A DNA stretch of 64,000 nucleotides, taken from the NCBI GenBank assembly GCA_025765615.1, contig JAIVFJ010000187.1, positions 60,970-124,969 on the forward strand. Reading direction: 5' to 3'. Every line of letters starts with the position of its first letter. The stretch's first letter is position 1. The position numbers and the translations under genes are program-made. The notes under the pieces are model-generated. The model saw nothing but the letters and a program-made list of their open reading frames with translations, was not told the origin of the DNA and did no database searches. Below are positions 2,620 through 55,860 of the stretch, in pieces. This stretch comes from Zopfochytrium polystomum (lineage: Eukaryota > Chytridiomycota > Chytridiomycetes > Chytridiales > Chytridiaceae).

Positions 2620-4317
2620 AAGTCAACAGGATTTTTGGATGGCCCGGGAGTAATCCGGGCATTTGCAGTTAACGTCCCTTCCCTTCCAATTTCTTTTCCT
2701 GTACTCATCGACAACGGTTGCAATGTCACAACGCTTCGAGATTTCTCTCTCTTCATTCCCTATAGTTATACTCAGCAGAAATCTAGCATGCGTATCGCCA
2801 AAGAAGGACCTATTCTTACTTGTGAAGGATACGGCACAGCTCTCATACCACTCGCCAACAACATCACACTTATAATTGAAGGTGCCCAATATGCTCCAGA
2901 ATGTCCTGTCAACTTGGTCGCTGATCGGGACCTACAACTATGTGGCTTCTTCCATCTTGCACGAGACCTTCAACCTGGTACTATTTATCGTAGCAGTCCT
3001 GAGGAAGGAGATCCAGCCGTCCTTCAAATGATTCTTAGACATGGTCTCCAATGGTTCCCAACAGCAGCAAACCCCAACTTCAACTACAGCAAACAATTTA
3101 TTGCACACTGCGCCAGTAAATTTTACAACCTCTTCAGCTCTGCAGAACCAGTTGATACACTCAGTATACGCACAGCCTTTCTCAACAGCAAAGCTCCAAA
3201 CACTCAGCGCATGCATGAACGCCTCGGCCATATCCCTTATGCAAGACTACAAGCAATGAAGGAGCACCGTACATGTGATGACTTTCCTGACATTAAGCTG
3301 GACTTACTTGAAGAACCGTGTAAGGCCTGCATTATTGCCAAACAGACTCGTGCTGCTATTCCACATACAGATCCTCCAGATAAACTACCAGGCGAACATT
3401 TAGCCTTTGATCTAGAGGAAGTCAAACCAAAGTTTCGAGGACAATATGGCTTTGCTCTCATTGCCATTGACTATGCAAGTAATTATCTCTGGTTGACAAA
3501 CCTTCGGAGAAAGTCAGAAGCACTACCAGAGGCCATTAAGATCATCCAACAATTGGAGACAGTTAGGGATGTTCGTGTAAAGGGCGTCCGCTTTGATGGT
3601 GGGGAACTGAATTCACTTGCTTTTAACCGTTTCTGTGCATCACGTGGCATCCGCGTTGAAGTTAGTCCACCTCATACACCTGAGCTGAATGGGAAAGCAG
3701 AGCGAGCAGTTCGAACAGTCATGGATGTCACACGATCTCTTCTAAGACATGCTGGTTCACCATGGTCATGGTGGGGATACGCGATTCGACATGCAGTAGA
3801 TATCATCAATACACTTCCTGTCCTCAGCCGTGGATTACTATCTCCAGTTGAAACGCTTCTTGGATTCCCTCCATGCATCAGTCAATTCAGAGTTTTTGGC
3901 TCAGGATGTTTGTATCATATCACAGCAAAGGAACGTGGACAAACACATCAGTTTAAAAAGCTTGCAGAACGCGCCCGACCAGCAATTTACATTGGAAACA
4001 TTGGTCGTTCCATTGCTCGCTTGATTGACATCAGCACGGGTAGAGTAATCACTCATCGATTGGATGACCTTGTGGTTGCAGAAGACAGTTTCCCTCGCCT
4101 CAGCACCTCAGCAGCAGAGGATATTACTCAGGACCTCGTTCATCAGCTAACACCACTCCTCAGCAAAGATGAACTTACATCAACTGAACAAAACATCACC
4201 AACCTCCTTCGTGAAGCCAATGTTCGCGTGGATCAATTCCCAGAACCAAGACCAGCAGCGGTAGCTGAACGACAACCTTCCACAGAACTAGCACCAAACG
4301 AACATGAAGTGATCCAG
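2620..4317 (+). CDS. pol: Pol exon 1 of copia copy A1: protease and integrase
   Basis: The frame is open from about 2620, overlaps the end of gag and lies in the -1 frame relative to it, so it has no ATG of its own near the start. A protease-like motif VLIDNGCNVTTL comes first, with DNG in place of the usual DSG/DTG. The GAG-pre-integrase HHCC zinc site follows (HERLGH ... CKAC). The integrase core shows the DDE triad: Asp in HLAFDLEEV, Asp in GVRFDGGEL and Glu in ELNGKAERAV. Reading through to the first stop at 4333-4335 would end Pol before reverse transcriptase. Splicing at 4318, where CAG is followed by GTACGG, would instead join it to the RT exon in frame. This half of A1 pol is intact. 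Confidence 0.88.
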
Positions 4318-4868
4318 GTACGGCAGCGAAAGTGAATCGGATAACGATGTACAGCACGAAGTGTTGGAGGTGGCGGCACGACGGGATGGACTCCGTGTTA
4401 CCGCAATTAACGCCACCTCCAGTGGGCCTTACCTACGAGCACTAAAGCTGGGGGACCAATCGGATGAGTGAGGGCGGCGACCGGCTCTGTGACTGCAGGC
4501 GCACTCTCGGCTGGGAGTGACGTGGGTGGCGCAACCGAAGGCCCTGGGCCATACCGACCCTGCGGGAGCTAGTGTGGCGTGGACCCAAGTCAGAAGGGAT
4601 GGATGCCTGTTTGGGGAGCCCATTCCGTAAGGAACACCACCAGGGGAGATAGGTCCCTTGGCGCCTGACGTTACGCATGGGGGAAAATGCGGAAGGCGGG
4701 CTGTGGAGAGAGGAAGAGAAGGCTCTCTGGCACGGGGTGTCCCGAGCCGCATCGTGCAGAAGGCTCACCTGCCAATGATTTTTCTAACCTGCCAATGATT
4801 TTTCTATTTCCTTTTTCTGCATCCTAATACTCACAAACACCTCTGTAACTTTACTAACACCACCAAAG
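4318..4868 (+). other. Predicted spliceosomal intron inside pol (551 bp)
   Basis: The stretch between the integrase and reverse transcriptase reading frames has stops in all the relevant frames. It begins GTACGG after a complete CAG codon. It ends TTTACTAACACCACCAAAG, a textbook TACTAAC branch point with an AG 15 bases downstream. The next codon (CAT at 4869) is in the frame that continues without a stop through a proline-rich linker into reverse transcriptase, so both boundaries are phase 0. The same arrangement is in copies A3, A4 and the diverged copy B1. Splicing itself is inferred, not observed. Confidence 0.78.
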
Positions 4869-6514
4869 CATACCCCTGATGACAAAACAATTGCTGAAAC
4901 ACCAGCTAGAGACCTACCACGTCAAGCGCCACCACCAGAACCACCACCACCAGAGCCTCCACCTACACATGTGCGCAAATCACCATGCAGCCCTACGCGC
5001 AGCCCATCTCCAAAACATACTCGATCCAGACATCTATATTTAACCAGTGTCAAATGTCCAGACCCGGTAACACGCACTGAGGCCATGAGTGGAAAGTGGT
5101 CCAAAGAGTGGATTGCAGCAGAGCAAACAGAGATTGACGCTCTCAGAATGCTTGCAGCCTTCGAAGTCGTTGATCGACCCAAGAATGTCAATGTCGTGCA
5201 GAACAAATGGGTTTACAAGGTCAAGCTTCGACCAGACGGCAGCATTGAGCGCTTTCGCGCACGACTAGTGGCGAAGGGCTTTACACAGCGTCGTGGCGTT
5301 GATTTCTGGAACACTCACTCTCCTGTTGTTCGCATCAATAGTCTACGATGGCTCCTTGCTATGACAGCCTCAAACGGTTGGGACACAGCCATGGTCGATA
5401 TTAGCAATGCCTACCTCAACAGCAAACTTGATGTCCCCATCTACATGGAGCAACCAGATGGCTACCGTTCGGATGGCAAGGTCTGGCTTTTGCACAAAGC
5501 TGTCAACGGTATCAAGCAAGCGGGGCGTTGTTGGTACCAGGAACTCATTGGTCGTCTCAAGTCTGCCAGCTACCAACAAAGCGCAGCAGATCCGTGCATC
5601 CTCTTCAAGCGCACAAAGGAACGTATTATTTTCATTGCTATCTATGTTGATGATATTTGTTTCTTTGGGCACACAGAGGAAATCACCTCTGCCATCACTT
5701 TGCTAAAATCCTTCTACAAGCTCCGCGAACTAGGTCATATCAAGACCGTACTGAATATGGAAGTTCATCGAACACCAACTGGCATCTACTTGCATCAACG
5801 AGCTTACACCAAAGAGTTACTCCAACGCCATGCAGACCTAGTCAATGGAAAGAAGGCAGCAGTAACTGCTCTCCCTAGTCCTCTCACTCTTCAACCTCGA
5901 GAAAATGATGAACAGCAGCAGTCTCATATCTTGGCGCCTGCAGCAAGGACCCAAGCAAACACCACTTGCAGATCCTCATTCGAGTCCTTCAATATATGAA
6001 TGGTACACGTGAGTATGGTTTGCTTTATTCCAACACAGGGTCTGGAATTTTTGGCTACTCGGATGCTGCTCATGGAGTTCATGCTGATGGGAAATCACAA
6101 CTTGGCTACTTCGTTTTGTTTGGAAATACCGCTATCAGCTGGGCATCAACTCGCAGTCCTACAGTTATGCTGTCACCTCAGCAAGCAGAATACGTTGCAG
6201 TCTCAGAACTAGGACGAGAACTGGAGGCCATCTCACAACAACACACAGCACTTATGCTCCCGTCCCCGACTCCTATTCCAATCTATACTGACAACCAAGG
6301 CGTCATCAATTTGAGCTCAAACGATCTCTACACTAATAGGTCAAAACATATTCTGGTTAAGTATCACTATATCCGGGAACTGGTTAATCGACAAGTGATT
6401 CGACTGGAATGGATTCCTGGTGGCGAGCAACCAGCAGATTATCTTACAAAATCATTACCAGCTGCTTTGGGTACTTACCATCTTAGTCATATTGGTCTTT
6501 GTCATGTGCCTTAG
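4869..6514 (+). pseudogene. pol: Pol exon 2 of copia copy A1: reverse transcriptase and RNase H, frameshifted
   Basis: After a linker with repeated PPPEP motifs, the reverse transcriptase starts near 5090 (NKWVYKVKLRPDGS) and contains the catalytic IYVDDI motif near 5640. A net 79-base deletion near 5910, relative to copy A4, shifts the frame before RNase H. RNase H then reads in a second frame from 5966 with the acidic residues in GYSDAAHG, AEYVAVSE and IYTDNQG, and ends ADYLTKSL... at 6514. The deletion is shared exactly with copy A3. This copy cannot make an intact RT-RNase H protein. Confidence 0.9.
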
Positions 6515-11344: not shown

Positions 11345-11895
11345 CTTTGGTGGTGTTAGTAAAGTTACAGAGGTGTTTGTGAGTATTAGGATGCAGAAAA
11401 AGGAAATAGAAAAATCATTGGCAGGTTAGAAAAATCATTGGCAGGTGAGCCTTCTGCACGATGCGGCTCGGGACACCCCGTGCCAGAGAGCCTTCTCTTC
11501 CTCTCTCCACAGCCCGCCTTCCGCATTTTCCCCCATGCGTAACGTCAGGCGCCAAGGGACCTATCTCCCCTGGTGGTGTTCCTTACGGAATGGGCTCCCC
11601 AAACAGGCATCCATCCCTTCTGACTTGGGTCCACGCCACACTAGCTCCCGCAGGGTCGGTATGGCCCAGGGCCTTCGGTTGCGCCACCCACGTCACTCCC
11701 AGCCGAGAGTGCGCCTGCAGTCACAGAGCCGGTCGCCGCCCTCACTCATCCGATTGGTCCCCCAGCTTTAGTGCTCGTAGGTAAGGCCCACTGGAGGTGG
11801 CGTTAATTGCGGTAACACGGAGTCCATCCCGTCGTGCCGCCACCTCCAACACTTCGTGCTGTACATCGTTATCCGATTCACTTTCGCTGCCGTAC
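11345..11895 (-). other. Predicted pol intron in copy A3
   Basis: This is the inverted copy of 4318-4868, with the same GTACGG donor, TACTAAC branch point and AG acceptor. Confidence 0.75.
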
Positions 11896-12730: not shown

Positions 12731-12976
12731 TGAAAGAAATGACTGCTGCTGTTTGTGGATGGTGGTGAACTACTCTGGTGGACTACTCTCTTATGATGGT
12801 GAAGCTGAGATGGGAGACTGTTGCACAATGTATGCTGTTTGGCTTTATACAAAATTGTGACAAAGACCAGGTGACAAAAAATGCACCAAATCCTCATCAC
12901 AGTTGGTGCTCCCATGCACCACAGTGTGAGGTGTTGCTCCTGCACACTGCTTACTGCAAAAACCCAAAATCTAACA
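12731..12976 (-). repeat. 3' LTR of copia element A4
   Basis: This is a 246 bp family A LTR with intact TG...CA ends. The polypurine tract lies just inside it at about 12977-12988. Its outer edge abuts truncated integrase of A3 without a recognisable duplication. Confidence 0.93.
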
Positions 12977-13259: not shown

Positions 13260-14984
13260 CTAAGGCACATGACAAAGACCAATATGACTAAGATGGTAAG
13301 TACCCAAAGCAGCTGGTAATGATTTTGTAAGATAATCTGCTGGTTGCTCGCCACCAGGAATCCATTCCAGTCGAATCACTTGTCGATCAACCAGTTCCCT
13401 GATATAGTGATACTTAACCAGAATATGTTTTGACCTATTAGTGTAGAGATCATTTGAGCTCAAATTGATGACGCCTTGGTTGTCAGTATAGATTGGAATA
13501 GGAGTTGGGGATGGGAGCATAAGTGCTGTGTGCTGTTGTGAGATGGCCTCCAGTTCTCGTCCTAGTTCTGAGACTGCAACGTATTCTGCTTGCTGAGGTG
13601 ACAGCATAACTGTAGGACTGCGAGTTGATGCCCAGCTGATGGCGGTATTTCCAAGCAAAACGAAGTAGCCAAGTTGTGATTTCCCATCAGCATGAACTCC
13701 ATGAGCAGCATCCGAGTAGCCGAAAATTCCAGACCCTGTGTTGGAATAAAGCAAACCATACTCACGTGTACCATTGATATATTGAAGGACTCGAATGAGG
13801 ATCTGCAAGTGGTGTTTGCTTGGGTCCTTGCTGAAGGCGCCAAGATATGAGACTGCTGGTGCCAAGTCTGGTCGTGTGTGTGTTGCCAAATAGTTGATGC
13901 CACCAAGGATTGCTTGGTAGAGCTGTTGATTTGCTGTGGGTTCATCATTTTCTCGAGGTTGAAGACTGAGAGGACTGGGGAGAGCAGTTATTGCTGTCTT
14001 CTTTCCATTGACTAGGTCTGCATGGCGTTGGAGTAACTCTTTGGTGTAAGCTCGTTGATGCAAGTAAATGCCAGTTGGTGTTCGATGAACTTCCATATTC
14101 AGTACGGTCTTGATATGACCTAGTTCGCGGAGCTTATAGAAGGATTTTAGCAAATTGATGGCAGAGGTGATTTCCTCTGTGTGCCCAAAGAAACAAATAT
14201 CATCGACATAGATAGCAATGAAAATAATACGTTCCTTTGTGCGCTTGAAGAGGATGCACGGATCTGCTGCGCTTTGTTGGTAGTCGGCAGATTTGAGACG
14301 ACCAATGAGTTCCTGGTACCAACAACGCCCCGCTTGCTTGATACCGTTGACAGCTTTGTGCAAAAGCCAGACCTTGCCATCCGAACGGTAGCCATCTGGT
14401 TGCTCCATGTAGATGGGGACATCAAGTTTGCTGTTGAGGTAGGCATTGCTAATATCGACCATGGCTGTGTCCCAACCGTTTGAGGCTGTCATAGCAAGGA
14501 GCCATCGTAGACTATTGATGCGAACAACAGGAGAGTGAGTGTTCCAGAAATCAACGCCACGACGCTGTGTAAAGCCCTTCGCCACTAGTCGTGCGCGAAA
14601 GCGCTCAATGCTGCCGTCTGGTCGAAGCTTGACCTTGTAAACCCATTTGTTCTGTACGACATTGACATTCTTGGGTCGATCAACGACTTCGAAGGCTGCA
14701 AGCATTCTGAGAGCGTCAATCTCTGTTTGCTCTGCTGCAATCCACTCTTTGGACCACTTTCCACTCATGGCCTCAGTGCGTGTTACCGGGTCTGGACATT
14801 TGACACTGGTTAAATATAGATGTCCGGATCGAGTATGTTTTGGAGATGGGCTGCGCGTAGGGCTGCATGGTGATTTGCGCACATGTGTAGGTGGAGGCTC
14901 TGGTGGTGGTGGTTCTGGTGGTGGCGCTTGACGTGGTAGGTCTCTAGCTGGTGTTTCAGCAATTGTTTTGTCATCAGGGGTATG
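13260..14984 (-). CDS. pol: Pol exon 2 of element A4: reverse transcriptase and RNase H, intact
   Basis: The open frame joins a Pro-rich linker to reverse transcriptase, with IYVDDI as the catalytic Asp pair, and then to RNase H, with GYSDAAHG, AEYVAVSE, IYTDNQG and ADYLTK as the acidic sites. It includes the stretch LYQAILGGINYLATHTR, which is deleted in A1 and A3. There is no in-frame ATG at its beginning. Translation as part of Pol therefore needs the upstream intron to be removed, or some other mechanism. It would copy element RNA into DNA inside the particle. Confidence 0.9.
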   Translation of the reverse strand, partial: HTPDDKTIAETPARDLPRQAPPPEPPPPEPPPTHVRKSPCSPTRSPSPKHTRSGHLYLTSVKCPDPVTRTEAMSGKWSKEWIAAEQTEIDALRMLAAFEVVDRPKNVNVVQNKWVYKVKLRPDGSIERFRARLVAKGFTQRRGVDFWNTHSPVVRINSLRWLLAMTASNGWDTAMVDISNAYLNSKLDVPIYMEQPDGYRSDGKVWLLHKAVNGIKQAGRCWYQELIGRLKSADYQQSAADPCILFKRTKERIIFIAIYVDDICFFGHTEEITSAINLLKSFYKLRELGHIKTVLNMEVHRTPTGIYLHQRAYTKELLQRHADLVNGKKTAITALPSPLSLQPRENDEPTANQQLYQAILGGINYLATHTRPDLAPAVSYLGAFSKDPSKHHLQILIRVLQYINGTREYGLLYSNTGSGIFGYSDAAHGVHADGKSQLGYFVLLGNTAISWASTRSPTVMLSPQQAEYVAVSELGRELEAISQQHTALMLPSPTPIPIYTDNQGVINLSSNDLYTNRSKHILVKYHYIRELVDRQVIRLEWIPGGEQPADYLTKSLPAALGTYHLSHIGLCHVP

Positions 14985-15535
14985 CTTTGGTGGTGTTAGT
15001 AAAGTTACAGAGGTGTTTGTGAGTATTAGGATGCAGAAAAAGGAAATAGAAAAATCATTGGCAGGTTAGAAAAATCATTGGCAGGTGAGCCTTCTGCACG
15101 ATGCGGCTCGGGACACCCCGTGCCAGAGAGCCTTCTCTTCCTCTCTCCACAGCCCGCCTTCCGCACTTTCCCCCATGCGTAACGTCAGGCGCCAAGGGAC
15201 CTATCTCCCCTGGTGGTGTTCCTTACGGAATGGGCTCCCCAAACAGGCATCCATCCCTTCTGACTTGGGTCCACGCCACACTAGCTCCCGCAGGGTCGGT
15301 ATGGCCCAGGGCCTTCGGTTGCGCCACCCACGTCACTCCCAGCCGAGAGTGCGCCTGCAGTCACAGAGCCGGTCGCCGCCCTCACTCATCCGATTGGTCC
15401 CCCGGCTTTAGTGCTCGTAGGTAAGGCCCACTGGAGGTGGCGTTAATTGCGGTAACACGGAGTCCATCCCGTCGTGCCGCCACCTCCAACACTTCGTGCT
15501 GTACATCGTTATCCGATTCACTTTCGCTGCCGTAC
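14985..15535 (-). other. Predicted pol intron in element A4
   Basis: The segment is 551 bases, nearly identical to 4318-4868, with the donor GTACGG, TACTAAC branch point and AG acceptor preserved. Removal joins two complete codons and makes protease-integrase-RT-RNase H one frame. Confidence 0.78.
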
Positions 15536-17233
15536 CTGGATCACTTCATGTTCGTTTGGTGCTAGTTCTGTGGAAGGTTGTCGTTCAGCTACCGCTGCTG
15601 GTCTTGGTTCTGGGAATTGATCCACGCGAACATTGGCTTCACGAAGGAGGTTGGTGATGTTTTGTTCAGTTGATGTAAGTTCATCTTTGCTGAGGAGTGG
15701 TGTTAGCTGATGAACGAGGTCCTGAGTAATATCCTCTGCTGCTGAGGTGCTGAGGCGAGGGAAACTGTCTTCTGCAACCACAAGGTCATCCAATCGATGA
15801 GTGATTACTCTACCCGTGCTGATGTCAATCAAGCGAGCAATGGAACGACCAATGTTTCCAATGTAAATTGCTGGTCGGGCGCGTTCTGCAAGCTTTTTAA
15901 ACTGATGTGTTTGTCCACGTTCCTTTGCTGTGATATGATACAAACATCCTGAGCCAAAAACTCTGAATTGACTGATGCATGGAGGGAATCCAAGAAGCGT
16001 TTCAACTGGAGATAGTAATCCACGGCTGAGGACAGGAAGTGTATTGATGATATCTACTGCATGTCGAATCGCGTATCCCCACCATGACCATGGTGAACCA
16101 GCATGTCTTAGAAGAGATCGTGTGACATCCATGACTGTTCGAACTGCTCGCTCTGCTTTCCCATTCAGCTCAGGTGTATAAGGTGGACTGACTTCAACGC
16201 GGATGCCACGTGATGCACAGAAACGGTTAAAAGCGAGTGAATTCAGTTCCCCACCATCAAAGCGGACGCCCTTTACACGAACATCCCTAACTGTCTCCAA
16301 TTGTTGGATGATCTTAATGGCCTCTGGTAGTGCTTCTGACTTTCTCCGAAGGTTCGTCGACCAGAGATAATTACTTGCATAGTCAATGGCAATGAGAGCA
16401 AAGCCATATTGTCCTCGAAACTTTGGTTTGACTTCCACTAGATCAAAGGCTAAATATTCGCCTGGTACTTTATCTGGAGGATCTGTATGTGGAATAGCAG
16501 CACGAGTCTGTTTGGCAATAATGCAGGCCTTACACGGTTCTTCAAGTAAGTCCAGCTTAATGTCAGGAAAGTCAGCACATGTACGGCGCTCCTTCATTGC
16601 TCGTAGTCTTGCATAAGGGATATGGCCGAGGCGTTCATGCATGCGCTGAGTGTTTGGAGCTTTGCTGTTGAGAAAGGCTGTGCGTATACTGAGTGTATCA
16701 ACTGGTTCTGCAGAGCTGAAGAGGTTGTAAAATTTACTGGCGCAGTGTGCAATAAATTGTTTGCTGTAGTTGAAGTTGGGGTTTGCTGCTGTTGGGAACC
16801 ATTGGAGACCATGTCTAAGAATCATTTGAAGGACGGCTGGATCTCCTTCCTCAGGACTGCTACGATAAATAGTACCAGGTTGAAGGTCTCGTGCAAGATG
16901 GAAGAAGCCACATAGTTGTAGGTCCCGATCAGCGACCAAGTTGACAGGACATTCTGGAGCATATTGGGCACCTTCAATTATAAGTGTGATGTTGTTGGCG
17001 AGTGGTATGAGAGCTGTGCCGTATCCTTCACAAGTAAGAATAGGTCCTTCTTTGGCGATACGCATGCTAGATTTCTGCTGAGTATAACTATAGGGAATGA
17101 AGAGAGAGAAATCTCGAAGCGTTGTGACATTGCAACCGTTGTCGATGAGTACAGGAAAAGAAATTGGAAGGGAAGGGACGTTAACTGCAAATGCCCGGAT
17201 TACTCCCGGGCCATCCAAAAATCCTGTTGACTT
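15536..17233 (-). CDS. pol: Pol exon 1 of element A4: protease and integrase, intact
   Basis: The content is as in A1: the DNG-type protease motif, the HHCC finger, then the DDE integrase core (HLAFDLVEV in the related frame, GVRFDGGEL, ELNGKAERAV). The frame overlaps the end of gag in the -1 frame. The integrase would insert the cDNA. Without splicing, it ends at the stop at 15518, just inside the intron. Confidence 0.88.
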
Positions 17234-18618
17234 TCATCTAGTTCAGTCTCTGATTGGAGTTGCGTTTCCATCCACAATTGCTGTTCTGCAGCATACTGCT
17301 CACTTTGCTGGTCATCCCAATCACCGTTCTGTAGCAGAAGTGCTTGGTTTTCAGGTATCTGCTGTTGTGGAGGGTTTGGTTGCTGGAGTAAGAGCGCATT
17401 TGGATTTGCTGGTGGTCGATTCTGTTGCTGTTGCTGCAATTGCTGAAGAAATGTGTTGGCACACTGTCGAGCAACATGACCATAGCCTCCACATGCATGA
17501 CATTGGACTCCAAAAGACTGTTGCTGTGCAGGGTACCAACTCCCCCCAGAGTTGCGTCCCATTGCGGTACCACCTGTTGCTGTTCCACGTGAACTTAGTC
17601 CTCGCCATGTTCCTCGGCCTCGGCCAAAACCACCATATGGGCGCGGTGTGTACTGTTGGGACTGAGGGTTTTGGTACTGCAAGGTTGTTGGGCGGATATT
17701 AGGATACGGCTGGTACTGCTGAGGTTTATGATAACTGCCACGACCACGGAGTTGATTATAGTGTACTTTTGGCCGAATAATTACATTTGCTGTTGGTGTA
17801 GTGACTTCTGGAATGGCTGTTGTCAGGTCCCGCTCCTGTTGTGCTGCAAGTCGATCCCGCCTCTCATCATATGTATTTTGGCGGGCGGTAGATTTAAATA
17901 AGGTGATTAGTTTAGTCAATGATGAAACAGAAGTGATAGGATTCCCTGCAAACATGAACGTATTGGCAACACCCATATCGATTAGCGTGTTGTTCAGGGC
18001 AGATACGAAGACTCGCACAACTTTGGAAAATGGTGTGATGCGACTGCGGATTTCCACTGATGAACTTTCTGCAAAGCTTTCTACTTTGTGGTAAGCTGTA
18101 ATGAAGCGCATTGCAAATGACTCGGATGATTCTGCAGGTTCCATTTTTATACGTTCGAAATCATCAATAATTTCCTTTGCTAATCCTTGATCTGTTGTTC
18201 GACATGCAATCGCAATTTCTCCAAGCAGTGTGTAGGCAAATATCTGCCCTCGTCGGGGGAACTGTGGTAGAAGCTCTGGTTCAACATGTCGTCGAATGAG
18301 AAGGATACAGTATGCGTTCTGGTCTTCTGTCCCTGGGAACCATTTGACCGGCTCACGCCCGTCTCGTGCAAATGCATAATGCTCGCCATGGTTGGGCCCC
18401 CTGCGTACTCTGCATGTTGGGCCGACATTAGGATCATTGGGGTCCACTTGATCATTGCGTAATACATTAATTCGGTCTGGGTCAACACAGTGGCGGAGAC
18501 CATTGCTTTTGTTGGATAGTTCTGAAATTAGGTCGTCCAGCCAATCTCCAAAATTTGCTGCGCCTTTGAGGATGGGGAATGCACGGGAAGCATACTTGAT
18601 TTGATCACGCTCGCTCAT
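17200..18618 (-). CDS. gag: Gag of element A4, intact
   Basis: The protein is about 472 residues from the ATG at 18618, which is conserved in every copy. The open frame extends upstream to a TTG at 18753 but has no earlier ATG. The capsid-like region covers roughly residues 1-300. A Gly/Arg-rich and Gln-rich tail with the zinc knuckle CHACGGYGHVARQC follows. The frame ends just inside the pol overlap (17200-17233), where a T run (five T) lies in the overlap and could allow a -1 shift. Confidence 0.9.
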   Translation of the reverse strand: MSERDQIKYASRAFPILKGAANFGDWLDDLISELSNKSNGLRHCVDPDRINVLRNDQVDPNDPNVGPTCRVRRGPNHGEHYAFARDGREPVKWFPGTEDQNAYCILLIRRHVEPELLPQFPRRGQIFAYTLLGEIAIACRTTDQGLAKEIIDDFERIKMEPAESSESFAMRFITAYHKVESFAESSSVEIRSRITPFSKVVRVFVSALNNTLIDMGVANTFMFAGNPITSVSSLTKLITLFKSTARQNTYDERRDRLAAQQERDLTTAIPEVTTPTANVIIRPKVHYNQLRGRGSYHKPQQYQPYPNIRPTTLQYQNPQSQQYTPRPYGGFGRGRGTWRGLSSRGTATGGTAMGRNSGGSWYPAQQQSFGVQCHACGGYGHVARQCANTFLQQLQQQQQNRPPANPNALLLQQPNPPQQQIPENQALLLQNGDWDDQQSEQYAAEQQLWMETQLQSETELDESQQDFWMARE

Positions 18619-19508
18619 GCTTGTGAGGAAAATGTGTGAGAGCTTTGCAGGAGAATAGAAATTTGAAAGGCAGTGATTTCCCTGATTTAGTGATAACCCT
18701 TCGTAGGGAATAGTAGCAGACTCAACAAGCGTGACACGACACTTGATGGTCAAGGTATGGGTGTGGATAGGTGGATAGGTGATGTGTGTAACGAGTTGGT
18801 GTTGAGAAAAACAGACTTGTCACGTTTGTGGAGCGAAATTGAGTGACTAGATGGGCCAAAATGCAGATGCAGCTTGTAACTCAATAACCCAAGAGGCCAA
18901 CGACGAAATTGGAGAATCACTGAGTTGCCCCACGTAGATCAGTAGTTGCTGAGTGCAGAGAAATTGGTTTTAAGTGATTTGGTCTGGTTTTGGCTGAGTT
19001 GTGTTGGTGGGAAGCTCTAATACAGCAATTTCGACGAGTTGAGTGCTAATTGAACAGTAAAAACGCGGACAGCTGTTATTCTGCAAGGAACCAGTCGAAG
19101 ATCACGATATTTGGTGGATAGATAGAGTGGAAGTAGCTCTTTCCTGTGGTGGTAAGCGATTCCTGAAGCAATTGAAAGAAGTTGCAAACGTAAACTCTCG
19201 AAATTCGGCGTTATCAGGTGGCTGATGTTGTGGATGAGTGCTGTTACACGCTCTGCAACGCTGCTGCAGCGAAAAACGATCGTCAAAACGTCTTCCCCAG
19301 TGTTAAAAGTGGTGTGGACGTGGTGAAATGGTGGGGGTACAAAAACTGAAGGTGTTGGTTCTGCAGGTAGTGATGCTGGTGATGTGTGGTGGTGAGTGGC
19401 ACTGTTTGTTTACTTGTTTTTCAAGTGTGTTGCTGCGTTCTGCACGTTCTTCCTCGATTCTGCTTGTTGTTTATACTCCAGATGATTGGGATGGGTCACA
19501 ATTTTGTA
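18619..19508 (-). other. 5' leader of element A4
   Basis: These 890 bases lie between the 5' LTR and the gag ATG. The part next to the LTR carries the LTR-complementary primer-site sequence. No convincing coding region is present. The equivalent leader in A1/A2 is 7044-7934. Confidence 0.8.
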
Positions 19509-19755
19509 TGAAAGAAATGACTGCTGCTGTTTGTGGATGGTGGTGAACTACTCTGGTGGACTACTCTCTTGTGATGGTGAAGCTGAGATGGGAGACTGTT
19601 GTACAATGTATGCTGTTTGGCTTTATACAAAATTGTGACAAAGACCAGGTGACAAAAAATGCACCAAATCCTCATCACAGTTGGTGCTCCCATGAACCAC
19701 AGTGTGAGGGTGTTGCTCCTGCACACTGCTTACTGCAAAAACACAAAATCTTACA
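19509..19755 (-). repeat. 5' LTR of copia element A4
   Basis: This is a 247 bp family A LTR. It differs from the 3' LTR at 12731-12976 by about six changes: one inserted G, a lost C near its start and an altered terminus. A reduced LTR match implies age or recombination. Confidence 0.9.
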
Positions 19756-24262: not shown

Positions 24263-24760
24263 GTAAGCACAGTGAAAGTGAATCAGATAACGATGTACAG
24301 CTCTGGTGTTGGAGGTGACAGCACGATGGGTTGGATTCTGTGCTACTGCAATTAACGTCATCTCCTGTGGGCCTTATTGGGAGCACTATAGGCGTGACTG
24401 AGGGAGACCGGATCGGGGGGTAGACCGGCAATGTGAAGCAACTGAAGGCCCACGACAACTGAAGCCCCAGCTCATAGGCTAGTGTGGCCTGGACATGCGT
24501 CAGAGGAGGTGGAGTCCTGAGCAGGGAGCCCATTCCGTGAGGAGTGCCAACCAGGAGACAGTTATTCTCCTGATGTGGCCAGGCGAGACGCGGGGGCAGC
24601 GTTGAGGGCAGGCTGTGTATGGGGGAGTGGTTGCCTCACCTCATAGGGTACTGGGGGGAGCCCAGACCAGCATCGTGCAGAAGGCTCACCTGTGCATTTC
24701 ATCCTTGCTTACTTTTGTGCATTGGATATCTGAGACTGTTGTAAACTAATTCCTCCAAAG
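24263..24760 (+). other. Predicted pol intron in B1 (498 bp)
   Basis: The donor is GTAAGC, closer to consensus than in family A. The 3' end is AAACTAATTCCTCCAAAG, with a CTAAT branch point. Both boundaries are phase 0, as in A1, and the following codons encode the same Pro-rich linker. Interior blocks such as GGGAGCCCATTCCGT and ATCGTGCAGAAGGCTCACCTG are also conserved with family A. Confidence 0.72.
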
Positions 24761-35464: not shown

Positions 35465-38441
35465 ATGCGAAACGCCAACAGCGCGTTGTTCACGCAATGC
35501 CCTCGGCAGGCTCTGCGTGCGAGCCGGCTCGCACCACTGCGCCATTGCCTCGCCAGCTTGATACCATCTCCCTTCACCAGCAGGCTATTGCGGCCAATGC
35601 AAGTCCGATCGTTCAGGGAACGAGACGATCGATCCTTCGGCCGCAGCGGCGGGTATGGCCGTCCACTCAGAGACTCTCGCGATGACCGATCCAACAACGA
35701 CTTCGGTCAGACTGGACCCCGCCACCGCGATTTCAAGCGCGACGGCCGCGAGCAACGCGATGCTCGCCACCAAGGCGGTTTTCACCGGAACAGTGGACCG
35801 TTATTCGGTAGGAGGAGTCGAGGGGGTCGCTGGTAGGGATGGTCGGAGCTTCCAGAGGGATGGTCAGCAAGAAGCATGGGCACAATCGGAGAGTTCAGAC
35901 TTCTCCGCACGGGCATTTGGTGATGATGCCGTCGCTCATAGCGGAGATGAAGGGCATTCTGACGGATTGTCGAGCTCGAACAGTTGAGTTCTCCGTTTCG
36001 TTGTGCACTTGCAAGCTCATCACTGATATTGGGACGTGTAAAAGAATTCTCTTTGAAGCTGGAGGATATGCTCGACTCATTCTTCAAGTCCAACATAGTC
36101 CGGAAGAAGTTGACGGCTTTTGGAGTGAAGAAGGAGCAGTTAAAAAAGTCCATGGACGCATTTGCTGGGAGCGTCATGGCGGGACAGAGTGGAAGGCGCT
36201 TCGCACTCTACCCTGAGAGAGGCCATTTTCTTGAAAAGTAGGCACTGCATTTATTCTCCTTTGTAAGTTAATTGTTTCCTTGGTCTCACAAACGATAGAA
36301 AACGTCGACCGGATTTTGCTGCCGGGCTTTATGAAAATCGTGAAAGAGCAGTTTCCCAAGGAGGAATCGGAGCACATAGGAACGCTTATGCGTCTCAGTG
36401 ACTTGCGAACTCCGGCAGAGTGGTATCCAGCAGCTCGTGCCATCAAACGGTACGTTTTGCGGCCCTTTTCACTGGCGTACATGGATGGACGCTGACACTG
36501 AAACAGCAAAATTATCATGCATGTCGGCCCTACCAACTCTGGCAAGACCCACCATGCATTAGAACGCCTGAAGAAAGCAGAGTCTGGCGTGTATGCTGGT
36601 CCTCTTCGTCTCCTGGCGCACGAGATCTATGATCGAATGAATTCTGCCGGAATCCCGTTTAACCTGCTCACCGGTGAAATGAGACGAGAGTCGGCCCACA
36701 TCGCCCGGTGGTCCGCGACTGTCGAGATGACCCCGCTCCATCGACCGTTCGAGGTTGCCGTCATTGACGAAATACAAATGATTGCGGACGAGCAGCGCGG
36801 CTGGGCATGGACTCAGGCGCTCTTGGGTCTACAGGCGTCCGAGATCCACCTTTGCGGGGAGCCGACCGCTGTTGATCTTGTGAAGCGGATTTGCGAGACA
36901 ACGGGCGACTCCGTGGAGGTGCGGACGTACAAGCGGTTGTCCGGCCTTGAGGTCCGCGAAAATGGCTTTCACGGACAGTTTTCAAAACTGAAAATGGGGG
37001 ATTGCTTGGTCGCATTCACAAGACGAAATATTTTTATGCTGAGAAAGATTGTGGAGGAGAAAACCCAAATACGTTGTGCCGTTGTTTACGGAAATCTGCC
37101 TCCAGGTATTCCTCTACCTTTGCTTTATTTTTCTTTCTTTTTTTTTTTTTTTTTCGTCACGACTGATAAATCACGTTTTGTGGCAGAGGTCAGAGCTGAG
37201 CAGGCTCGACTGTTTAATGACCAAGCCAACACCGGGTACGGCATTTTAGTCGCCTCTGACGCCATCGGCATGGGCCTGAACTTGTAAGTCTTACGTGGTC
37301 ACTAGCGAGACGCTTCCCTTGTTTCTTTCGTTGATATTCTTCCCGATTGCGCTAATAACGAAACTCAGGAATATTCGACGTGTAATTTTCTCGACCATGG
37401 AAAAATTTAATGGTCAGGCAATTGTTCCTCTCACGGACTCCCAAATCAAGCAGATTGGTGGACGTGCTGGTCGTTTCGGCACGAAGTTTGAAATCGGCGA
37501 AGTAACGACGTGTGTGCCCATTCCTCTTTCCTTTGAGCGTTGTTACTGACTACGGTAATTAGCCTTGTGAACAAAGACACACCGCGATTGAAACAAGCGA
37601 TGGCGAAGAAGTTCACCGATTCGCTTCGAAGCGCGGGACTGCACCCAACACTGGAGCAAATGGAGTTATTCGAGAGGGAGCTTCCAGGGCTGACGTTTGC
37701 TGAGTTGCTGGTGAGTTTTTCCCATCGGCATTAAGCTGGAAATATCTCAATTTTGTTGTTAATCAATCACTTCACAAAACGCGAACCAGGACAAATTTGA
37801 GATCTTAGCATCTGTCAATAACGAGTACTTTTTGTGCAACTTAGAGACGCAAAAGCAGGTGGCTGATCTCATCCAATCTGTTGCGCTGTCCCTGCAAGAC
37901 CGGTACACTTTTATTTCAGCGCCTACAAACGCCGAGGACGTCCGACTTGCGGCGCTGACGCTTCGAATGGCGAAAGCCGTTGCGAACGGCGACCGTGTGG
38001 ATTTGGAGGGAGCCATCCAGCTTCCGAACAGGCAGCCAACAAGTAGCGAAGCGCTGCGGGAACTCGAGGGCATGCACAAGGCCATTGTTTTGTACATGTG
38101 GCTTGCGTAAGTTCTGTTTTTCGTCGCCATACTTTCCATGCGCCTTTTGTACTCTGCAGCGACCAAACCTAAACACACAAATCGCCCCGCACAGCCAGCG
38201 ATTCCCGACCAACTTCTCTGACCTCGAAACGGCTTCTCACTTGAAAACGTCCGCGGAGGCCATGATCCAGCAGTCCCTACTTCTCATGTCCGCCAACGCG
38301 CCGAAGTGGATCAGGATGGGAGGCGCCAAGGCCAGCGACGATAAAGCCTCTCCCGCGGCCAAGATCCAGCAGCAGGTTAAAAAAATGGACAGCCTAGCCG
38401 CGAAAATGTTCTTGCCTGATAAGGCGGCAGCAACTGAATAA
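35465..38441 (+). CDS. SUV3: Mitochondrial ATP-dependent RNA helicase SUV3
   Basis: The helicase core is unmistakable: HVGPTNSGKTHHALERL (motif I), GPLRLLAHEIYDRMN, LLTGEM, VIDEIQMIADEQRGWAWTQ (motif II), HLCGEPTAVDL, VASDAIGMGLNL and QIGGRAGRFGTKF (motif VI). The SUV3 C-terminal region follows (GLHPTLEQMELFERELP). SUV3 unwinds RNA for the mitochondrial degradosome. The N-terminus is Arg-rich without early acidic residues, as in a mitochondrial targeting peptide. Clear exons are 36507-37105, 37187-37283, 37369-37509, 37563-37710, 37790-38106 and 38195-38441, all phase-consistent. Upstream, 35465-35832 joins 36016 in frame. The join from about 36221-36237 to 36299 keeps frame only if a GC donor at 36222 is used. 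A T-rich tract lies in the intron at 37106-37186. Confidence 0.92.
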
Positions 38442-52418: not shown

Positions 52419-55400
52419 ATGGAGAACTCGGATGTCGTCGCGTCGTCAGACGAAACATCGGAGGGGCTCTTGGCAGTGCCGTTGCTGTTGTCAGTCTCGC
52501 TGTCGCTGTTGGGGTTGAGGTTGTGCGTCTGCCGAAGTCCCATCCGCCCATCGCCTGCTCCTGCTGCTGGTGCAACGACTGCTGCTGCCGCTGCTGTTGC
52601 TGTTGCTGCTGCTGCGCCCCCGCCCATCTCGTTGATGATTGGTCGGTCAAACATGAAAGCACACAGTAAACGAAAAAAGAAAAAAAAAAGAAAAAGAAGA
52701 AAGAAAGACTCCAATGCTGACATGTCACCACCACCACCGCCGGCCCGCCCGCTTCCTCTTCCCGAGCCGTTGCCCCTCCCCGCCTTGGTCTTTGGTCATG
52801 TCTCCACGCAGGACGCCCGCGACAGGCCCGCCGTAGTCTTCTATCAGCCAAATACTTCCCTCCTGCCGCCTTCTTCTTCTTCTGCGTCATCCGCACAGCA
52901 CCATCCGAGACTGCACAACCATCATCAGGTCTACCCATCATCTATGTTCAGGCTTGCTCGCTGCTCAGATGGATCGTCCCTGTTGTACTTGAGCTACGGC
53001 AACTTGTGGCAAGCTGCACGGACTGTTGCCGCCATCCTCGACACGAAGATTCGGAATCTCGATCATCATCGATCCCACCACCGGATTGGTGTTGCCGTGT
53101 CGGAAGGACCGTATTTGCCTATGCTGCAACTGTCGCTGCTGCTGGTTCCGACTCCTGTTACCTTTGTCCCTCTCGACTTGACCGATCCTCGACTACCCTT
53201 GATTCTGGAGGACTCAGAACCGAGTTTGATTATAACGAGGGGCGAGACTGACGAGAGTACCTTAAGCGAAGCAGCAAAGCAACTCCATGGTGAGTTTTGC
53301 GCTTGGTCAGTGGGAAATTACTGACCAGTGAGCACTTGCAGTTATTCCGTCGACGGTCCAAATTCAACAGCTCATTGGCGAGGCAGTCACGATCCTCTCG
53401 TCCAGCTCGAGAGATCAGTGGCCAAAGCCTCCATTGATCGCTCCGTCACATGTTACCCACATTTTCTTCACTTCTGGAAGCACCGGTCGACCGAAAGGTT
53501 GCCTCGCGACGTTGAGCTCTCTAACCTCCTATTGTCTGGGGAAAAACACCGCCCATGCCGTTTCGAGGGACAGCACAGTATTTATTGCGTCCTCCCATAC
53601 ATTTGATCCATCCTACGGAGACGCTCTTGCAACATTGGTTGCTGGAGGTGTTATTGCCATTGCCCCACGCGCGGCAACGTTTCAAGCACTCGGGTCCTGT
53701 TTAGCAGCAACACGGGCGACACACACCTGCACCACTCCAGCTCTTTTCAATACTCTTCATTCCACCGCCACTGAGGCCAATAGTTGGACTCCGGACCGTC
53801 TTCCATTACTGCAAGTGGTGGCACTGGGGGGTGAACCGATGGGAGTCGACGTCGTCGATAAATGGGCGGAATCTGTTCAACTTCTCAACACTTATGGTGT
53901 TACGGAATGTTGCGTGTACCAAACTATCTCACGAGTTCCACACGATGTCGGGCATCCTCTCTTCAGAAAACGACTTGGTGAACCGATTGGCGAAAACCGT
54001 ATTTTACTTATGAGGAGTCGAGAGGACAACGGCGGTCGCGCTCGATTCAATGAGTTCGATCCAGAATCAATGGTGCCCGTTTTCTATACCACAATAATAA
54101 AACCGAACGGTCAGTCGCAGCCCCATTTCGATCCTCGCAGCATTGGAGAAATATGGATTTCAGGTCCACAAGTTGGGCCAGGATACCTAAAGCGGCCCGA
54201 CTTCACGAGTGCTCGCTTTATTGAGCATAAAGACTACGGCCGATGCTTCAGAACCGGCGATCTTGCTGCTCGTGCGACTTTCGAATCCCAAGCGGGTCGT
54301 GGCGAAAGCATCGTTTTTCTTGGCCGCTCAGATACACAAATCAAGGTTAACGGCCAACGTGTCGAAGTCGAGGAAATCGAGCAAATGTTACTCAAAGCCA
54401 CTTCAATTAATGGTGTCGCCTTGCTCGAAGACGTTGTTGTTGTGTTGAACTCCGGAATGAAGATTCTGGTTGCATATTGCGTGCCGAAAGAGTTGGATGT
54501 GTTTGTGGGCGACTGCTCGGCAAACGATCCATCACGAAGTGACGGCTCGGAAGCCGTTCTTATAGGCGTTCTGCGACACGTTGCCCAGCTCAGACTTCCT
54601 CGACACATGGTGCCTTCTCGCTTCATTGTTGCTTCCCAGCTGCCACAGACTACAACTGGGAAGAAGGCGCGAATGAAGCTGTCTCAGGAGGAATTGCCAC
54701 TGATTCCGTTTCCTGTGGCGGACGGATGCGGTGATGACGAGGTGGACCACGGCGGATGGTGCCGGATTGTCTCCGCAGTTTGGTCGGACGTTCTCGGAAC
54801 CAGCTTTTTTGCATCTGCTCGTTTGCCAAATACTTTCCATTTCGCAGAGCTTGGAGGAGATTCTCTTAAAGCTCTCAAAGTAGTGAGGCGATTGAAGGAT
54901 TTATGGGAGGCCGAGGTCCGCAGCCGGGATCCGGAGGGACACGCTCCAACTGTCGATGCAGGCGAATTTGGTGAAAATCTGACCGATTTCGCTCCCGGCG
55001 AACTATTGAAACGACCACTTCTCGGAGAATACGCATACCACCTGTTCTCTGCCTTTGGTACGTTCGACAACGCTGCCTCAGATTCTTCAACCTCACCGAA
55101 CAGAAAACCGTACTTGGAAGAAAACCCACCATCACCAGTGGTCAGCCTCCTGTTTCGTGCCTCTGCTCTGGGGCGTTGGCCACTCGTCCCGGTCATTGTT
55201 GCCCTGCTACCAACTTCGTTGAACTTTCCTCCTCGCGCCATGAATCCTCTTCACGCGGCTTGCCTCGGCGGACACACATCCACTGTAAAGCTCCTACTTG
55301 ACACACTGCCAGCAGCTTCTCCGTCCCTTCCCGACGCAACCGGTGCCACCCCGCTCCACTTGGCCTGCCAACACGGCCCCATCGAGCTTATCTCGCTCCT

Positions 55401-55860
55401 CCTTTCTGCCATCTCGCCCTTCAAACACACTTCAGCCACCGCCTCTCCGACCCTCACGCGCCAGCATCTTTCGGCCCTCACGCGCAAAGACGACTTTCAG
55501 CAGACCCCGCTGCACCACGCGGCCCGATCGAACGCTCCGGCGGCCGTGCTCGCGCACCTGCTGAGGATCTTGCCGGGATCGGAGCACGCCCCCCGCGACG
55601 TGTACGGGCGCACGCCGCTGCACTGGGCCGTCGTCAATGGCCATCTTGGATGCGTCAAGGTGCTGGTCGAGGCTGGCACCGGCGACGTTGGCGCGTTCGA
55701 CAAGGCCGGGGAAACTGCTCGAGAGATGGCGGAACGGAGAGCGAGATGCGGAGCGGCGGAGCGGGGCGCCGGTCGGCCTGCGAGCGTTTTTGGAGCCATC
55801 GCAGCGTTAGTGGGCGGAAGCGGGGGAACCGCAAGTCTGAAGAAATATGCAAAGAAATAA
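52419..55860 (+). CDS. Adenylation domain-carrier protein-ankyrin repeat fusion
   Basis: Two exons (52419-53289, 53342-55860) give up to 1129 residues. Later ATGs at 52653 and 52722 are alternative starts. Adenylation core motifs are in order: FTSGSTGRPKG (A3), HTFDPSYGD (A4, with the Asp that binds an amino group in amino-acid-activating enzymes), LLNTYGVTE (A5), CFRTGDLAA (A7), FLGRSDTQIKVNGQRVEVEE (A8) and TTTGKKARMKL with the catalytic Lys (A10). A carrier domain follows with FAELGGDSLKALKVV, whose Ser would take phosphopantetheine. Then come about five ankyrin repeats (MNPLHAACLGGH, ATPLHLACQHG, QTPLHHAARSN, RTPLHWAVVNGH). It should activate and tether a carboxylic, probably amino, acid. 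No condensation, reductase or thioesterase domain is present. The first 80-100 residues are low complexity with a Lys/Arg run. Confidence 0.85.
52556..52612 (+). repeat. GCT/CTG-rich trinucleotide run
   Basis: Imperfect GCTGCTGTTGCT repeats code Ala/Val in the putative N-terminus of the adenylation protein, if translation starts at 52419. Confidence 0.8.

Follow-up and report, generated by a model that had tools for sequence, protein, structure and literature searches.

A probable spliceosomal intron with a conserved RNA fold between the integrase and reverse transcriptase parts of Ty1/copia elements in Zopfochytrium polystomum

Introduction

LTR elements must avoid the packaging and copying of spliced RNA (excerpts of PMC3735527). 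In Ogre, a plant Ty3/gypsy element, an intron within the polyprotein region is partially spliced (excerpts of PMC6317226, PMC2533021 and PMC12786077), with the unspliced RNA serving as the genome and the spliced RNA encoding the full Pol. In the Ty1/copia elements copia, BARE1 and EVADE, host splicing produces a Gag-only RNA (excerpts of PMC3735527 and PMC12786077). Bianca, a plant Ty1/copia element, contains two ORFs lying 172 bp apart on average; in two-ORF groups the first ORF is GAG or GAG-PROT, and the excerpted text of PMC6317226 describes no splicing of Bianca. Retroviral and Cer1 systems (CTE, Rev, CERV) export unspliced RNA that retains its splice sites (excerpts of PMC10309623). In the yeast RPS17B intron, a segment downstream of the donor pairs with one upstream of the branch site, and this zipper stem shortens the structural distance to the branch point (excerpts of PMC2536676).

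Here we analyze a stretch of 64,000 nucleotides from Zopfochytrium polystomum (the window), in which two families of Ty1/copia elements, A and B, contain an interval between integrase (IN) and reverse transcriptase (RT) that is very probably a spliceosomal intron. The logic proposed for A and B is that of Ogre. Ogre, however, is a Ty3/gypsy element with RT before IN, whereas the elements described here have an RVT_2-type RT with the IN side before it, and their intron lies between the two and has a conserved RNA fold inside. They share with copia, BARE1 and EVADE the Ty1/copia type and the use of host splicing, but here splicing would complete Pol. An earlier note on this DNA presented this arrangement as the reverse of the copia logic; the logic of the arrangement is already known from Ogre (excerpts of PMC6317226), which the note did not name. 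The need to export RNA bearing splice sites is shared with the CTE, Rev and CERV systems; here the structure is inside the intron, and export is only a candidate role for it. What is new is the superfamily, the position of the intron and the RNA module. The open-licence literature, in the excerpts available, yielded no IN-RT intron in Ty1/copia and no conserved RNA fold inside one.

Results

In its first 25 kb, the window contains Ty1/copia elements: several near-identical copies and a single diverged one. In copy 1 (plus strand), the upstream PR-IN part of Pol occupies 2635-4317, in an ORF that itself extends to 4335, and the downstream part, 4869-6514, contains RT (RVT_2) and RNase H, the latter assigned by alignment to RT-RH proteins; this frame is broken near 5966-5999. 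Copy 3 (minus strand) has both frames open (RT-RNase H, 13260-14882; PR-IN, 15518-17218), a Gag-side ORF at 17200-18753 with no Pfam match, and paired LTRs of 246-247 nt with ends read by eye (3' LTR, 12731-12976; 5' LTR, 19509-19755). The RT frame matches RVT_2 (PF07727) with E values of 8e-54 and 1e-53 in Pfam. Among the Pfam matches of the upstream frame, SH3_retrovirus exceeds its cut-off, gag_pre-integrs and Pol_BBD stay below theirs, and no protease or integrase-core match was obtained from the upstream ORFs; the label PR-IN rests partly on gene order and is partly our assumption. With an RVT_2-type RT, an integrase part upstream of it and paired LTRs, the elements are Ty1/copia LTR retrotransposons. 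The closest named RT matches are from Chytriomyces confervae (44 and 45%). In copy 3, the PR-IN frame overlaps the Gag-side ORF by 19 nt (17200-17218, minus strand) and is in the -1 frame relative to it, so that a -1 frameshift may make Gag-PR-IN; a clear slippery heptamer was not recognized by eye in this overlap.

Four intervals in the window, each with GT...ACTAAY...AG signals, part the integrase frame from the RT frame. Three belong to family A and are 551 nt long (copy 1, 4318-4868, plus strand; copy 2, 11345-11895, minus strand; copy 3, 14985-15535, minus strand), and the fourth, of 498 nt, belongs to the family B copy B1 (24263-24760, plus strand), whose frames are broken. The family A intervals have the sequence GTACGGCAGC...TTTACTAACACCACCAAAG and the same exon edges, the three copies being near-identical and hence not independent; the B1 interval reads GTAAGCACAG...AAACTAATTCCTCCAAAG. 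In copy 1 the donor GT (GTACGG) is at 4318-4319, a branch-site-like ACTAAC at 4853-4858, and the acceptor AG, in an AAAG rather than a YAG context, at 4867-4868. A branch-like ACTAAC or ACTAAT lies about 10 nt upstream of the AG in all four intervals, the acceptor being the first AG downstream of it in both families, and all four are in phase 0 at either end. The coordinates, splice signals and phase given in the earlier note are therefore correct on re-reading. In both families the interval contains stops in all three frames. Inside the interval, the exon-1 frame meets a stop after 5 codons in A and after 30 in B1; the unspliced end of exon 1 is thus not conserved.

To read the splice sites in more copies, a check suggested in the earlier note, the assembly (80.2 Mb, 761 contigs) was covered by two similarity searches with the interval as query. 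Each scored 40 matches, from 325 and 332 candidates, and we read the 30 best loci per search, a sampling that biases these 60 copies toward intact intervals. Among them, the donor GT is kept in 60/60 and the acceptor AG in 59/60, with L056 as the exception. All 30 A copies have the donor GTACGG or GTATGG, all 30 B copies have GTAAGC, and the acceptor is AAAG, not YAG, in 57 of the 60. AATTAAT replaces AACTAAT in 18 of the 30 B copies. Reading frames are open for at least 450 codons on each side of the interval in 22 of the 60, with 450 codons per side looked at. Seven of the family A loci read (L001-L007) form a sub-group in which 20 nt close to the 3' end of the intron are duplicated in tandem; this accounts for intron lengths of 551 as against 531 nt.

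Exact donor-junction patterns, which give lower bounds on copy number, occur genome-wide at least 58 times for A and at least 52 times for B. A genome-wide pattern search for joined, intron-less A and B junctions, allowing up to 2 mismatches, found none, nor was a joined A junction with a gap of 0-30 nt found. Seven A-type RT matches missing from the intron lists were also retrieved with RT as the anchor; intron sequence is present at 7/7 of these loci, three of which (L088, L089 and L092) have no match across the 5' part of the intron.

The start of exon 2 is under coding constraint right after the acceptor. For the A-B pair L008/L032, 69 codons preceding the motif MSGKW could be aligned, with 21, 18 and 48 differences at first, second and third positions; the 37 codons aligned among the first 40 of exon 2 show 11, 9 and 23. 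Two other A-B pairs gave 16, 14 and 43, and 13, 15 and 40, for the exon-2 linker before MSGKW. An in-frame Met before MSGKW is absent from L008 and from the window copy, both of family A, and occurs once in B. The third-position bias, together with the lack of an in-frame Met in A, shows that the linker is translated and that, in A at any rate, translation begins upstream of it, which favors splicing over a separate start for RT.

Further elements were sought with an outside RT protein (P0001), for which 84 of 1834 candidates were scored. Outside the A/B list, as judged by eye, were 27 rows; 25 were read, and C22 and C54 were left unread. An intron reading GTGAGT...CAG is present in the IN-RT linker of 23 of the 25 copies read, which we call family C. 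It is 116 nt long in ten copies (C1) and 133-134 nt in thirteen (C2), and is in phase 0 on both sides where this was read (L061 and L065). The donor side is replaced in L076. The introns of A/B and C share linker and phase; because the linker is of low complexity, the same codon cannot be claimed for them.

The remaining copy, L064 (contig C70, 223400-226200), is exactly without the IN-RT intron. Its IN-side and RT-side sequences lie inside a single 669-codon open frame; it was retrieved because of its long-looking reading frame, its RT bears two TGA codons further on, and the copy is broken elsewhere. It is 97-98% identical to ten intron-bearing C1 copies across 354-415 nt. The C2 copies, 57-59% identical to it, have the intron too. 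Since both close and distant relatives contain the intron, its absence from C70 is derived, and exact loss from GT to AG is the hallmark of a spliced RNA that has been reverse-transcribed. This one genomic copy shows that the intron does get removed. The earlier note counted copies with continuous frames as evidence against an intron; C70 is such a copy, yet as an exact splice product it argues for splicing. Exact C1 junctions occur genome-wide as 17 donor junctions and 1 joined junction (C70), and the contrast in intron-less junctions between A plus B (0/110) and C1 (1/18) is not significant (p 0.14).

Next to its exons, the A/B intron is well conserved between families. In L008/L032, 374 of 464 ungapped positions are identical (80%; 101 gap columns), and two other A-B pairs gave 79-80%, compared with 73% overall for the exons beside the intron and 54-64% near the junctions. 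Third codon positions differ between A and B at 248/444 and 225/446 sites (Fisher p 1e-30 and 3e-23 against the intron). The statement of the earlier note that the flanking codons are conserved across B1 and family A holds only in part: in L008/L032 the last 75 codons of exon 1 are 54% and the first 40 of exon 2 are 61% identical in DNA, and the interval is better conserved than those codons. Intron conservation is patchy, at 44-90% per full 30-column block, and the alignment contains single-base and 37-nt gaps, which argue against a common reading frame in the intron. Within families, the intron is slightly more variable than the exons (A, 1.7% vs 1.2 and 1.6%; B, 0.6% vs 0.4 and 0.4%), so the constraint is visible only between families. 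Counts of differences by codon position within families were uninformative, since homologous flank runs out at some loci and the families are young.

Folding of 24 of the 48 distinct introns with RNAalifold gave a shared structure of 106 pairs, 20 of which show a two-sided change that keeps pairing. Its energy is -102.9, compared with -76.7 ± 5.8 (minimum -93.4) for alignments with columns permuted within blocks and classes (n=100), none of which was as low. Between the family majorities 18 pairs are compensated, against 10.6 ± 2.9 in the shuffles, 3/100 of which reach as many; a two-row A-B fold gave 27 compensated pairs against 17.8 ± 2.8 (maximum 23 among 40 shuffles). This covariation is informed by two separated families only, A and B. 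Single-sequence folding energies were not unusual against dinucleotide shuffles (z -0.86 and +0.34), and the minimum-energy folds of A and B disagree with one another and with the shared fold. The shared A-B fold and its compensated pairs support the earlier suggestion that the intron RNA itself has a role.

Rfam gave no family for the intron: no model reached its gathering score anywhere in the window, and relaxing the limit to an E value of 1 over 4200-5000 brought up nothing. Exact 30-mers of the module occur 79 times genome-wide; compared by eye with the known matches, all but six could be placed, and of these six, four proved to be A copies (L093-L096) and the other two to be B-related (L097 and L098). 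The exact 30-mer search of the genome thus found no module outside A/B-type elements. L097/L099 (contig C377, 22700-25700), considered as a new genomic context for the module, was rejected as an old, dead B-like copy, with an intron identity of 87% and RT pieces at 74% and 84%; a patch of short TGGAA-type repeats lies nearby.

The outermost helix of the shared fold is a predicted closing stem, with arms at 4323-4351 (intron nt 6-34) and 4749-4772 (intron nt 432-455) in copy 1 on the plus strand, which would enclose a structured RNA module of about 450 nt (4323-4772). In B the arms are in the same place (intron nt 7-35 with about 408-432). The stem contains one compensated pair, is as stable in 48/1000 shuffles for A and 11/1000 for B, and is missing from the single-sequence fold of A. 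Looping out its roughly 425-450 nt would shorten the five introns measured to 72-101 nt. The yeast RPS17B stem differs from that predicted for A/B, which encloses a conserved multi-helix module; to our knowledge, yeast zipper stems enclose no such module.

As the yardstick for host splice sites we used one gene in the window, a SUV3-like helicase gene (36330-38441, plus strand), a host exon of which has its named matches in early-branching fungi. Four of its introns, of 53, 57, 81 and 85 nt, were confirmed by frame and end in YAG, and two further introns were read by eye. With the predicted stem closed, the A/B intron would be of host size, its folded module kept clear of the splicing path. 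Elsewhere in the window (52419-55860, plus strand), a single ORF (53434-55860) combines an AMP-binding domain with ankyrin repeats, and further AMP-binding sequence lies just 5' of it.

Discussion

The splice signals, the phase, the constraint on the exon and the family C intron, which occupies the same linker, support the view, proposed in the earlier note, that IN and RT of A and B are parted by a spliceosomal intron. Removal yields one frame in the natural family C copy L064, and by phase alone in A/B; that A and B are themselves spliced we infer from their own sequence together with family C.

Several other explanations of the interval were considered. It could be non-coding DNA, inserted or decayed, that hitch-hikes in young copies, consistent with its being slightly more variable than the exons within families. 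Between families, however, it is better conserved than coding DNA and covaries, and family C has an intron in the same linker, with exact removal, so that this explanation is largely contradicted and highly improbable. More improbable still, to a degree that we would hardly entertain it, is a self-splicing group I or II intron: a large folded RNA lies within the coding region, but it has no Rfam match over the scope searched, its ends are of the GT...branch...AG type, and in family C the intron is short and of the ordinary GT-AG kind. Alternatively, the module could serve for internal ribosome entry or as a start region, so that RT-RNase H is made from unspliced RNA, as a large, conserved, GC-rich RNA immediately 5' of the RT frame might suggest. 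We consider this improbable. In L008 and the window copy the coding constraint on the linker precedes any Met, donor and acceptor are conserved, and family C, which lacks the module, is likewise laid out in two frames and includes an exact splice product.

The high intron identity could also reflect exchange between families by recombination instead of constraint, as 80% identity beside exon edges of 54-61% would allow. Exchange fits poorly with conservation that is patchy from block to block and with the compensated changes, and in the old dead B-like copy, too, the intron ranks above the RT pieces; this explanation has a small probability, slightly above that of ribosome entry. A stronger competitor, though one we still hold to be unlikely, accepts the intron and has the module only tune splicing efficiency, through a zipper-like structure and a weak 3' site, unrelated to the identity of the genome RNA. 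The position of the stem, the 72-101 nt that remain and the precedent of yeast RPS17B (excerpts of PMC2536676) agree with it. The shared structure of 106 pairs nevertheless far exceeds the closing stem, and family C does with a plain intron of 116-134 nt, so that a stem is needed only when there is a module to loop out.

We consider it probable that these Ty1/copia elements have a spliceosomal intron between IN and RT, that their unspliced RNA is the one copied, and that the A/B intron holds a module of about 450 nt looped out by a stem. Genomic copies carry the intron, from which it follows, as the earlier note supposed, that the RNA that is copied is unspliced. This RNA would be the template reverse-transcribed into new copies and could encode Gag and PR-IN, while spliced RNA would join PR-IN to RT-RNase H. 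Intron retention may, as the earlier note suggests, set the ratio of Pol parts. If the segment just past the donor pairs with one lying upstream of the branch site, the putative folded module would be looped out, and the spliceosome would meet an intron of 72-101 nt. The AAAG acceptor may make A/B splicing partial; it is unlike the YAG of the SUV3-like gene and of family C, and fits partial splicing.

Present only on the unspliced RNA, the module is in a good position to act as a mark on it, whether for packaging, for pairing or for export, or else to restrain splicing, and may serve it in one of these ways. Tentatively, we suggest that it could be a genome-identity tag, found on unspliced RNA only and needed for packaging, dimerization or export; spliced RNA would make enzyme without being copied, and the zipper-like stem would keep the module from blocking splicing. 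Such a tag would fit the finding of no intron-less A/B copy and of one in the plain-intron family C, a contrast that is not significant on its own. If the suggestion is true, messenger would be parted from genome by splicing alone. For LTR elements it is an open question how one RNA acts as both messenger and genome. Here that decision would depend on a single intron whose RNA structure is defined and covaries, and for which the plain-intron family C in the same genome provides a natural control.
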